This document shows, piece by piece, positions 16,085 to 51,411 of a DNA stretch of 64,000 nt. A program made the position numbers and the translations under genes. The notes below the pieces were generated by a model that was not told the origin of the DNA, ran no database searches, and worked only from the letters and a program-made list of their open reading frames with translations. This DNA is from Roseobacter ponti (lineage in GTDB: Bacteria; Pseudomonadota; Alphaproteobacteria; Rhodobacterales; Rhodobacteraceae): NCBI RefSeq assembly GCF_012932215.1, contig NZ_CP048788.1, positions 124,001-188,000 on the forward strand, read 5' to 3'. The first letter of the stretch is position 1; each line of letters starts with the position of its first letter.

Positions 16085-16909
16085 TCAGCGCCGCGCGCTC
16101 CAGCTCGCAGAGGCATGGCGGCGGGTATAGAACTCACCCATGAGCCCGATCATGATCAGCACAATCGCCACCCAGAGCGCATAGCTCCAGTCGGTAAAAC
16201 GCGGCACGTAATTGATAAAGATATAACCGCGGGCCTGGTCGATTGTGTGAAAAAGCGGGTTCCAGTCGAACATGGCGAGCATATAGGCGGGCATCATATT
16301 GGCGACAAACATTTTGCCCGATGCGATCATATTGGCGCGCTGATAGATCGTGTTGAAAATCATCACGAACTGCGGAGCCCAGGGTTTGATCGCCAGAAGC
16401 ACGATCCCGATCGACACGCCGGTAAGCCAGGAAAGCATCAGCATGCAAAAGGCACCGCCAGGGTTTTCTATGTGAATGGGCATCCAGGCGACGTGGTAGA
16501 TAAACAGGATAAAGCCCATGGACAGCACCTGGATATAGAGCGATCCCAGAGCGGCGGCGGCAATCGCCACAATAGTATTCATCGGCGCGTGCTGCATCAT
16601 CGGGCTTGCCGGACCTTCGGACCCGACAACGGCACCCATCGCTTTGGTGTGGGTCATAAAGAGAAAAACGCCGGACATAATATAGAGCAGGAAATCGCCC
16701 CGAACGGCGGCACCGCGCAGCCCCAGCAGGCTGAACATCACATAAAAGGCGAGCACGAAAATAACCGCCTGCAGCAGGTTCACCCCGATGGCCAGAAAGG
16801 CATTGGCATGCGTTTTGCGCACCGACCGCACCGCAGAGTGGTAGATCAGCGTCAGGATGGTCAGCGCGGAGGTGATGCCGCCCTGACGTCTGTGGGTCGT
16901 GTCAGTCAT
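16085..16909 (-). CDS. ABC-2 type polysaccharide export permease (KpsM-like)
   Basis: Integral membrane protein with about six transmembrane segments (AFLAIGVNLLQAVIFVLAFYVMF, FLLYIMSGVFLFM, TIVAIAAAALGSLYIQVL, CMLMLSWLTGVSIGIVLLAI and others) and the C-terminal signature FDWNPLFHTIDQARGYIFINY typical of capsule or O-antigen ABC-2 permeases. Start set at ATG 16909 (MTDTTHRRQG), preceded by GAGGCGCGG, giving 274 residues; an in-frame extension of 37 codons upstream looks non-coding. The usual ATPase partner (KpsT-like) is not adjacent. Divergent from cysQ. A role in surface polysaccharide export fits the sugar genes that follow. Confidence 0.82.
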   Translation of the reverse strand: MTDTTHRRQGGITSALTILTLIYHSAVRSVRKTHANAFLAIGVNLLQAVIFVLAFYVMFSLLGLRGAAVRGDFLLYIMSGVFLFMTHTKAMGAVVGSEGPASPMMQHAPMNTIVAIAAAALGSLYIQVLSMGFILFIYHVAWMPIHIENPGGAFCMLMLSWLTGVSIGIVLLAIKPWAPQFVMIFNTIYQRANMIASGKMFVANMMPAYMLAMFDWNPLFHTIDQARGYIFINYVPRFTDWSYALWVAIVLIMIGLMGEFYTRRHASASWSARR

Positions 16910-50036: not shown

Positions 50037-50462
50037 TCAGACGTCGCCGTCGCGCACATTGCCGCGCAGAGCTTTGACCTCGCCGCGGGCCTTTTTCGCC
50101 TTCAGGCGGCGTTTTTTCGACCCTAACGTGGGCTTTGTGGGGATGCGCCGTTTGGGTGGTACGAGGGCTTTGCGGATGAGATCGGCCAGGCGGTCGCGCA
50201 CGATGTCGCGGTTGCGGGCCTGGCTGCGGGTCTCGTCGCATTGCAGCACCAACGCGCCTTCGGTGGTCCAGCGGCGTCCGGCGAGGCGGCGCAGACGGTT
50301 TTTCACCGGTTGCGCCAGATTGGGCGAGCGTGCGGCCTCGAAGCGGAGTTCGACGGCGGAGGAGACCTTGTTCACATTCTGACCACCGGGCCCGGAGGAG
50401 CGGATGAAGTTCTCCGTCAGCTCCCAGTCCTCAATGGCGATGTCTTTGTTGATCCTCAGCAT
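50037..50462 (-). CDS. arfB: Alternative ribosome-rescue factor ArfB (peptidyl-tRNA hydrolase)
   Basis: Rescues ribosomes stalled at the end of non-stop mRNA. Start at ATG 50462 (MLRINKDIAIEDW), giving 141 residues. Catalytic GGQ at residues 26-28 in SSGPGGQNVNK; C-terminal basic tail rich in Arg and Lys (PPKRRIPTKPTLGSKKRRLKAKKARGEVKALRG), which reaches into the mRNA channel. The in-frame sequence upstream of ATG crosses the leader terminator and is not coding. Confidence 0.93.
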   Translation of the reverse strand: MLRINKDIAIEDWELTENFIRSSGPGGQNVNKVSSAVELRFEAARSPNLAQPVKNRLRRLAGRRWTTEGALVLQCDETRSQARNRDIVRDRLADLIRKALVPPKRRIPTKPTLGSKKRRLKAKKARGEVKALRGNVRDGDV

Positions 50463-50493
50463 GGGATGCCTTTTGCCACGAAATACGCAGACG

Positions 50494-50523
50494 AAAAAGG
50501 GCCGCACGGGATGCGTGCGGCCC
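50494..50523 (-). terminator. Strong terminator upstream of arfB
   Basis: On the minus strand GGGCCGCAC (50523-50515) pairs perfectly with GTGCGGCCC (50507-50499), 9 bp around a 7-base loop, followed by TTTTT. It lies only 32 bases before the arfB ATG, so it ends a leader or small RNA, and may attenuate arfB. Confidence 0.88.
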
Positions 50524-50596
50524 AATCGAATGGTTTACGGAGGTGGGGTCGGTTAGACGACCGTCCACTTCGGGGTTCTGCCCACCAAGGGCTGCC

Positions 50597-50653
50597 TCAG
50601 CAGGCGACCTCCAAAGCTGTTCCGACACCTCTCTCCAATACCGTTCTTGACAC
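50597..50653 (-). CDS. 18-codon leader ORF with extended Shine-Dalgarno
   Basis: GTG 50653 to TGA 50597-50599, encoding VSRTVLERGVGTALEVAC. It follows AAAGGAGGTGATCCA, a perfect complement of the 16S tail; GGAGG is 7 bases from GTG, ideal spacing. Coding is inferred from these signals only. No run of one amino acid as in an amino-acid attenuator. Confidence 0.4.
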   Translation of the reverse strand: MSRTVLERGVGTALEVAC

Positions 50654-50790
50654 TGGATCACCTCCTTTACCTATCTGTTAAAACCACCTGAATCGTCGCA
50701 CAGCAAATCGCATTCGCCAAGCACTTTTTTAAAGATCCGCCATCGGGGCGACGGTGTCTGATTATTTCGCAGGCAGACCCGGCAGAGTGC

Positions 50791-51411
50791 TCAGGATGCA
50801 GGTGCAAGGCGCGCGGTCAGAGCCCGGAACGGTATCAGGGCAATGAGCGCCAGCGCCAGTTTCACGCCCCAGTCGGCCACGGCGAGCGACACCCAGAGCG
50901 GTGCCATCGGGCCCACGCCCAGCAGGGGCAGGACTTCGCCGGCCCAGGACACATCATTGCCCGGCTCGAGGAATGTGAGGCCAGCGGAGAAGGCGATGGT
51001 GAAAAAGAGGGCGGTGTCCACCGTGCTGCCGATGATGGTAGAGGCCAGCGGCGCGCGCCACCAGGCGCCGTTCCGGAGTGCGGAAAAGATCGCCACATCA
51101 AGGAGTTGCGCGGTCAGAAACGCGATAGCGGATCCGACGGCGATGCGCAGGGTCACCAGAGGCCCGAACTCGCCCGTAATCTGTGTGCCGATGAGAGAGC
51201 AGATAACGCCCACGACGAAGCCCGCGAGCACAACGCGCCGGGCGGCCTGCGCGCCATAGACGCGGTTCATAATGTCAGTGACCAGAAAGGCCAGCGGATA
51301 GGTGAAGGCCCCCCATGTCAGCCAGTTCCCGAAGAGGAACTGCACGAGGATATTGGAGGCCACCACGATGGCGGCCATGGCAATGATGCCGGGGATGTAA
51401 GCGCGGTTCAT
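50791..51411 (-). CDS. yhhQ: Queuosine precursor transporter (YhhQ / VUT family)
   Basis: Inner-membrane importer of 7-cyano- or 7-aminomethyl-7-deazaguanine for queuosine tRNA modification. 206 residues from ATG 51411 (MNRAYIPGIIAMAAIVVASNIL), with about six transmembrane segments and the family block TYPLAFLVTDIMNRVYGAQAARRVV; GSTVDTALFFTIAF is also characteristic. An in-frame extension upstream lacks the family pattern and is not used. No neighbour of the queuosine pathway lies in the window. Confidence 0.88.
   Translation of the reverse strand: MNRAYIPGIIAMAAIVVASNILVQFLFGNWLTWGAFTYPLAFLVTDIMNRVYGAQAARRVVLAGFVVGVICSLIGTQITGEFGPLVTLRIAVGSAIAFLTAQLLDVAIFSALRNGAWWRAPLASTIIGSTVDTALFFTIAFSAGLTFLEPGNDVSWAGEVLPLLGVGPMAPLWVSLAVADWGVKLALALIALIPFRALTARLAPAS

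Follow-up and report, generated by a model that had tools for sequence, protein, structure and literature searches.

A 64-kb stretch of Roseobacter ponti DNA, hereafter the window, carries on its minus strand a small RNA whose Shine-Dalgarno (SD) sequence is complementary to most of the 16S rRNA tail. Judged from the comparison of sequences, this RNA is conserved, single-copy and structured: behind the long SD come a tiny ORF that has been kept, an anti-SD arm in Rhodobacterales, and a terminator. We lean towards the view that it is an independent small RNA gene whose SD is gated by ribosomes. It resembles a switch operated by free ribosomes more than a control element dedicated to arfB, the next gene downstream. 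At rest, the anti-SD is predicted to hide the SD and a hairpin to hold the start codon, in folds that are consistent across relatives. A free 30S subunit would then invade through its own 16S tail, the displaced anti-SD would be captured within the ORF, by the segment that surrounds GGAG, and translation of the ORF would run as far as the hairpin at its stop codon. The RNA would thereby report, or buffer, free 30S subunits, and its candidate outputs are the peptide, the freed anti-SD arm or the trapping of ribosomes.

The locus upstream of arfB

The minus-strand sequence AAAGGAGGTGATCCAG is complementary to 16 nt of the 16S tail encoded in the same genome. The 3′ end of that 16S rRNA reads GCGGCTGGATCACCTCCTTTCT, so that 16 consecutive bases of the RNA are able to pair with it, and the motif AAAGGAGGTGATCCA has here its sole exact copy in the window. 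Toward arfB the parts follow one another in the order SD, GTG with 18 codons, small hairpin, long helix, CACCTCC and terminator (Table 1). The earlier note on this DNA, made from the letters alone, had described an exact anti-16S SD on the minus strand followed by a GTG and an 18-codon ORF, and then a hairpin, a CACCTCC and a terminator shortly before a gene that it named arfB; all of these parts are present, and the gene name stands, with a match above the family cut-off. The start codon of the window copy also lies within a predicted hairpin, which that note had not mentioned. None of 200 shuffles of positions 50464-50690 folds as well as the native sequence (z -3.8).

The gene upstream of the RNA (50791-51411) matches the queuosine-precursor transporter family TIGR00697. 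A search of 50430-50830 for a sigma-70-like promoter gave no match. Ahead of the RNA, several relatives (L010, L011, L012, L019 and L021) share a sequence resembling TTGACaaACACaAAATCTGTG that includes a CACA...TGTG inverted repeat and may be a promoter plus operator; the window version of this stretch is divergent.

Because the motif is an exact complement of 16S, the first possibility considered was a 16S gene fragment in reverse orientation. That reading was ruled out: the match ends at the GTG, nothing in the window matches rRNA, and the end of the genome's own 16S gene was located 230 kb from the RNA.

Table 1. Parts of the RNA locus and the adjacent gene, in window positions
Feature	Position	Strand	Basis
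Whole RNA gene region, to the terminator T tract	50494-50690	-	Conservation (model R1) and fold z; 5′ end unmapped
Extended SD AAAGGAGGTGATCCA, 16 nt with the next G	50654-50668	-	Complementary to own 16S tail; core conserved
ORF of 18 codons plus TGA, GTG start (50651-50653), peptide VSRTVLERGVGTALEVAC	50597-50653	-	Length kept in 51/52 relatives
Start-codon hairpin, UCCAGUGU with a AUAUUGGA-type strand; window version GUAUUGGA	50634-50657	-	97.4% of cells paired in the 52-sequence alignment of relatives
TTGGAG in the ORF (codons 6-7), predicted alternative anti-SD partner when the SD is occupied	50633-50638	-	GGAG at this site in 109/114 relatives; predicted folds
Small hairpin AGG-CAGC-CCT, starting with the final base of the stop codon	50588-50597	-	98.7% of cells paired in the 52-sequence alignment; both sides vary
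Covarying helix P2, ORF codons 12-15 with CCCCGAAGTG, plus the intervening stretch	50566-50619	-	Permutation test
Anti-SD CACCUCC, predicted mask of the SD	50539-50545	-	Predicted folds; all seven pairs kept in 93/98 anchored relatives (the anchoring expression itself demanded a YYTC(C/T) ending)
Intrinsic terminator	50494-50523	-	10-bp stem and T5, about 31 nt ahead of the arfB ATG at 50462
arfB, next downstream gene; linked, outside the core RNA	50037-50462	-	NF006718, 181.7 bits (cut-off 100)

Conservation in the family and the link to arfB

The pattern AAAGGAGGTGATCCANTG occurs once in the R. ponti genome and its reversed control not at all, and the looser pattern AAAGGAGGTG-N2-9-RTG occurs once and its reversed control twice. 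A single occurrence by itself is weak proof, because the reversed control of the looser pattern is found twice; the proof lies in conservation. The exact pattern AAAGGAGGTGATCCANTG is present in 71 of 149 family genomes, once in each, as against none of the 149 for the reversed control. A covariance model (R1) was made from 52 Rhodobacterales copies, training sequences that had themselves been found by the motif. Under stricter filters it places a single copy in 131 of the 149 family genomes, and it recovers a copy in all 17 genomes of the genus examined, R. ponti included. All 62 R1 hits without the exact motif were fetched, and 30 of them share one A-to-G change within GATCC that preserves a G.U pair with 16S. 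When these hits are joined to the training sequences (114 relatives, 52 of them chosen by the motif itself), the ten-base core AAAGGAGGTG is intact in 111 and bears one change in 3.

The structural comparisons use an alignment, A1, of 52 sequences from loci selected by their first peptide residues. L008, L041, L048 and L105 were unused, no end having been found for them; of the 56 loci with ends, L007, L013, L099 and L169 were dropped, and the ends of L011 and L019 were set by hand. Each sequence was cut at the anti-SD with a search expression that demanded TC(C/T).

Comparison of the sequences shows that the ORF is maintained, as would be expected of a translated small mRNA or a dual-function sRNA. 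Its length hardly varies (Table 1), and it ends in TAG (29 relatives), TGA (17) or TAA (6), in 52 sequences that were chosen by the first peptide residues and not by the stop. Among the further 62 hits, read in one register fixed by the script, 44 have 18 codons. All 52 aligned sequences have GAG as codon 7 and 49 have TTG as codon 6, so that both are near-fixed at the nucleotide level; glutamate at codon 4 is spelled GAA in 7 and GAG in 5. That the start codon, the length of the ORF and each of the three stops are maintained, and that the peptide start is conserved within orders, could be taken to mean that the RNA is an ordinary small mRNA that encodes a micropeptide behind a very strong ribosome-binding site, its structure merely tuning translation. 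We consider this unlikely: across orders the peptides are alike by eye in little but residue 2, codons 12-15 vary in step with an RNA helix (see below), and the near-fixation of codons 6-7 is one of nucleotides.

The neighbourhood of the RNA bears on a second alternative, in which the RNA is an attenuator or leader of arfB: translation of the 18-codon ORF would decide passage through the terminator, and arfB would go up when ribosomes are short. The ORF and the terminator do stand directly upstream of the gene to be controlled. Of the 71 genomes with the exact motif, 59 have a same-strand arfB start within 400 nt downstream (range 178-349 nt). The order SD, ORF, anti-SD and terminator is conserved, so the refuting condition set by the earlier note, a lack of conserved SD-ORF-terminator order upstream of arfB in related genomes, does not apply. 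The gap between the T run of the terminator and the arfB ATG is at most 40 nt in 28 of 49 measurable loci (of 53), which leaves little room for another promoter. From these gaps it follows that arfB is probably transcribed by read-through in many Rhodobacteraceae, where the RNA probably doubles as a leader. Among the matches listed from named genomes, loci with a Rhodobacterales-type peptide have a same-strand downstream arfB in 16 of 20 cases (13 within 350 nt, 3 at about 1.1 kb). One genome (G011:C7:203-1660) has, besides its full arfB match, three short partial arfB-like matches nearby on the same strand.

The RNA is not found only together with arfB, however. In 12 of the 71 genomes there is no arfB within 400 nt: three have it 738-1749 nt away, three at a greater distance, and six on a different contig or strand. 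In the 97 listed loci without a Rhodobacterales-type peptide there is a single arfB match (in stretches of up to 8 kb, with some RNAs near the edge); it is L142, of Hyphomonadaceae, where arfB lies on the opposite strand, upstream of the RNA. The terminator hairpin of the window copy, moreover, is the same in both computed folds, and no antiterminator was identified in them. We therefore doubt that attenuation of arfB is what the RNA is for. Neighbours are common within groups and different between them: a relative of the transporter gene stands upstream in at least 20 sequences, the window included, and at least 14 loci with a Sphingomonadales-type peptide have a different downstream gene. 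The comparison as a whole points to the arfB link as an arrangement at the level of the family, and the wider distribution of the RNA suggests that the role of arfB leader is not its original one. The earlier note had proposed a ribosome sensor controlling arfB. Control of arfB is not supported as a general function, given the 12 genomes and the single match just described, but the idea of an RNA opened by ribosomes gains support from the two-state fold predicted below.

Predicted folds and what they allow

The folds are predictions, and they hold across relatives. In the 52-sequence alignment, which is trimmed at that very element, the SD is paired to C(A/G)(C/U)CUCC in 99.7% of cells. The changes seen in this SD:anti-SD helix are one-sided only and keep the pairs, so covariation is unable to prove it. 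For helix P2 the permutation test (51 of the 52 sequences) gave a mean of -14.8 kcal/mol with own partners versus -12.0 kcal/mol with permuted ones, and none of 10,000 permutations reached the observed value; this and all other tests are statistics without correction for relatedness. In 16 of the 114 relatives the anti-SD was not anchored, and eight of these show CACCTCC, CATCTCC, CATCTTC or CACCTCT by eye.

Folding of the 52 sequences without their terminators puts the anti-SD CUCC on the SD in every one of them. When the SD is forced open, as if held by 16S, the CUCC moves onto ORF codons 5-9 in 40 of 52, and in the remaining 12 there is no capture. In controls with everything after the start region shuffled, the closed state was predicted in 21 of 416 and capture in 13 of 416; when the shuffle spared SD and anti-SD and was confined to the middle, the figures were 329 and 22 of 416. 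The 62 further hits, cut at a fixed length that ignores the anti-SD, have a distal partner for the SD in 58 cases (the exceptions being L263, L281, L314 and L316), and this partner moves into the ORF in 45, leaving 17 without alternative capture; their shuffles gave 78/248 and 8/248. Six loci outside alignment A1 were folded as well, and all six closed and five showed capture. The earlier suggestion that CACCTCC could mask the SD thus has a counterpart in a predicted fold conserved in the order.

Opening of this fold by 30S subunits is energetically allowed in the models. The predicted cost of opening averages 12.1 kcal/mol, versus -25.7 kcal/mol for the SD:16S duplex, across the 52 sequences, and the window copy has values of 11.8 and -28.2 kcal/mol. 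An open-state helix that had been expected between codons 2-5 and the 20 nt past the anti-SD failed its permutation test (own -6.03 versus permuted -5.85; 1736 of 10,000 permutations, and 757 of 10,000 on 21 distinct strands). AAAG:CUUU and GAGAA:UUCUC exchanges are visible in the rows of that stem despite the non-significant test.

A clasped pair made of a 16S-tail copy and its complement might also work as a ribosome-titration switch, in which free 30S subunits open the clasp and the loose copy masks the SDs of other mRNAs, giving feedback to global initiation; we rate this as rather unlikely. Another reading makes the RNA a trans-acting regulator, its anti-SD arm a mimic of the 16S tail that pairs with the SDs of other mRNAs in the manner of alphaproteobacterial anti-SD sRNAs. 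A CACCUCC-type arm is retained in most relatives, two of them (L159 and L309) carry downstream of the SD a near-complete copy of the 16S tail (GGATCACCTC), and SisA of Caulobacter is said, in the available part of its report, to act via an anti-SD 10-mer common to SisA-D (PMC12559287). The predicted resting fold, however, has the arm on the RNA's own SD in 52/52 and 58/62 sequences, and we judge action in trans to be quite improbable. Very improbable is a part in 16S 3′-end maturation, with the complement guarding or guiding the trimming of precursor 16S rRNA: in GAAAGG relatives it reaches the last-but-one base of the 16S end, which we take to be CCUUUCU, but the start codon, the ORF length and the stop codons would be left unexplained.

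Relatives across Alphaproteobacteria and known systems

The small RNA with its putative ribosome-gated SD has a relative in Rfam. A scan of the window at the gathering threshold gave no entry for the RNA, and a permissive scan gave RF01867 (CC2171), with a full-length alignment at 35.3 bits (E 4.6e-6). Because this score is below the gathering cut-off of 75, the window copy is not filed as a member of RF01867 and is treated as a relative instead. Four other permissive matches (E 3.2 to 8.4) were taken as chance. Elsewhere in the window, 16193-16342 on the plus strand matches RF02645 (Cis2_sRNA, Ruegeria cis2 sRNA) at 81.4 bits, above the cut-off. The RF01867 consensus opens with the same extended SD and GUG-UC start (GAAAGGAGGUGAUCCAGUGUC), is of similar length and ends in a terminator hairpin; the window carries this 5′ segment with its start and serine codons, and with T for the first G. 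Six of the seven pairs of the RF01867 closing stem, which joins the start of the ORF to the terminator, are possible by hand count, in other letters (GAACGGU:ACCAUUC), and the stem is present in part in the open-state fold of the window copy; the related covariation test is non-significant. There are also differences. In the Rfam structure a GG:CC mini-hairpin of two pairs is the only pairing within an otherwise open SD, but in the RNA described here an anti-SD is predicted to mask the SD; the displayed RF01867 alignment names no ORF or anti-SD.

In the portions of the literature that were available, RF01867 is among the families with improved structure in Rfam 15 (PMC11701678). For MH_s33, a relative in Mesorhizobium huakuii that is listed under RF01867, an RNA-seq interval is given, in a study reporting RNA-seq products for 34 of 35 non-riboswitch predictions, the exception being MH_s6 (PMC5596092). 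Two earlier ncRNAs have been reported as translated (Schrader 2014; PMC4117421). The RNA is related to an Rfam family for which the literature found, in those portions, states no function.

A pattern search of named genomes yields at least 117 loci. Among the matches listed, the titles are alphaproteobacterial, a few being only Proteobacteria or Pseudomonadota; the exception is L180, labelled SAR92 (a gammaproteobacterium), which looks like a chance match. Relatives of the RNA occur in Sphingomonadales, Rhizobiales and Caulobacterales, and the RNA also exists without arfB nearby. The pattern AAAGGAGGTGATCCNDTG is found in 32 of 190 class genomes, and RF01867 matches at E 0.001 or better in 39 of 190, 7 of these above the cut-off; in 14 control genomes Caulobacter vibrioides alone is positive. 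Of 18 listed named loci that carry the exact pattern, five score at or above the RF01867 gathering cut-off, and the exact-pattern loci of Sphingomonadales, Bradyrhizobium, Mesorhizobium and Rhodobacterales fall below it.

Features outside the search pattern support, at the level of sequence, the view that the class-wide relatives are one family. Codon 2 is serine in 26 of 30 fetched class loci, which the pattern did not demand; 85 of 99 usable listed loci have CAAC or AACA within the 20 nt that precede the SD (versus 8 of 99 for the control), and a terminator-like site lies 40-260 nt past the SD in 41 of the 99 (versus 3 of 198 control segments). Masking of the SD was scored as a z value in 156 non-redundant sequences, with a mean of -1.00 versus -0.02 for scrambled SDs. 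The mean z was -1.73 in Rhodobacterales, -1.93 in Bradyrhizobium and a weak -0.60 in the VSHC group, and in Sphingomonadales this test detected no masking by a downstream anti-SD (-0.10). Since masking differs by group, the gate may not be the same throughout the class. RNAalifold on MAFFT alignments of other orders found almost no structure for the VSHC and MSS groups; among the groups with a listed result, Bradyrhizobium (7 sequences) was the one with a hairpin over the SD.

Two groups have peculiarities of their own. Bradyrhizobium-type loci (L136, L146, L150, L154, L173, L194 and L199) have an ORF of only 14 codons in which KRCHLAGIAR is fixed, and the CHL codons spell UGUCACCUC, an in-ORF anti-SD that is predicted to fold onto the SD. 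In Sphingomonadales-type loci (e.g., L110, L126 and L144) CACTTCC recurs, as does a stem resembling CATGGT(T)CAG:CTGACCATG, though there is no masking signal.

Other known systems resemble the RNA in part, as far as the available text of each describes it. rnTrpL/peTrpL of Sinorhizobium also places a tiny ORF, then hairpins and an intrinsic terminator, before a gene; here, by contrast, no run of codons for one amino acid is seen by eye, and the RNA persists at loci that lack a following arfB. An extended SD in Staphylococcus aureus likewise lengthens the SD:16S helix toward the start codon, but by two extra base pairs and in an ordinary mRNA, whereas here 16 pairs are possible and an internal mask is predicted (PMC13009471). 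The Caulobacter SisA-D RNAs share the anti-SD motif, but they act on mRNAs, and the available part of their report mentions no tail-length SD (PMC12559287). A literature search of similarly partial texts returned no account of the combined architecture of tail-length SD and anti-SD.

The RNA is thus a relative of RF01867 built around pairing with the ribosomal anti-SD, with a tail-length SD, a kept ORF, an internal anti-SD in Rhodobacterales and a predicted two-state fold. Should ribosomes operate the switch, Alphaproteobacteria would have in it an RNA that senses free 30S subunits.
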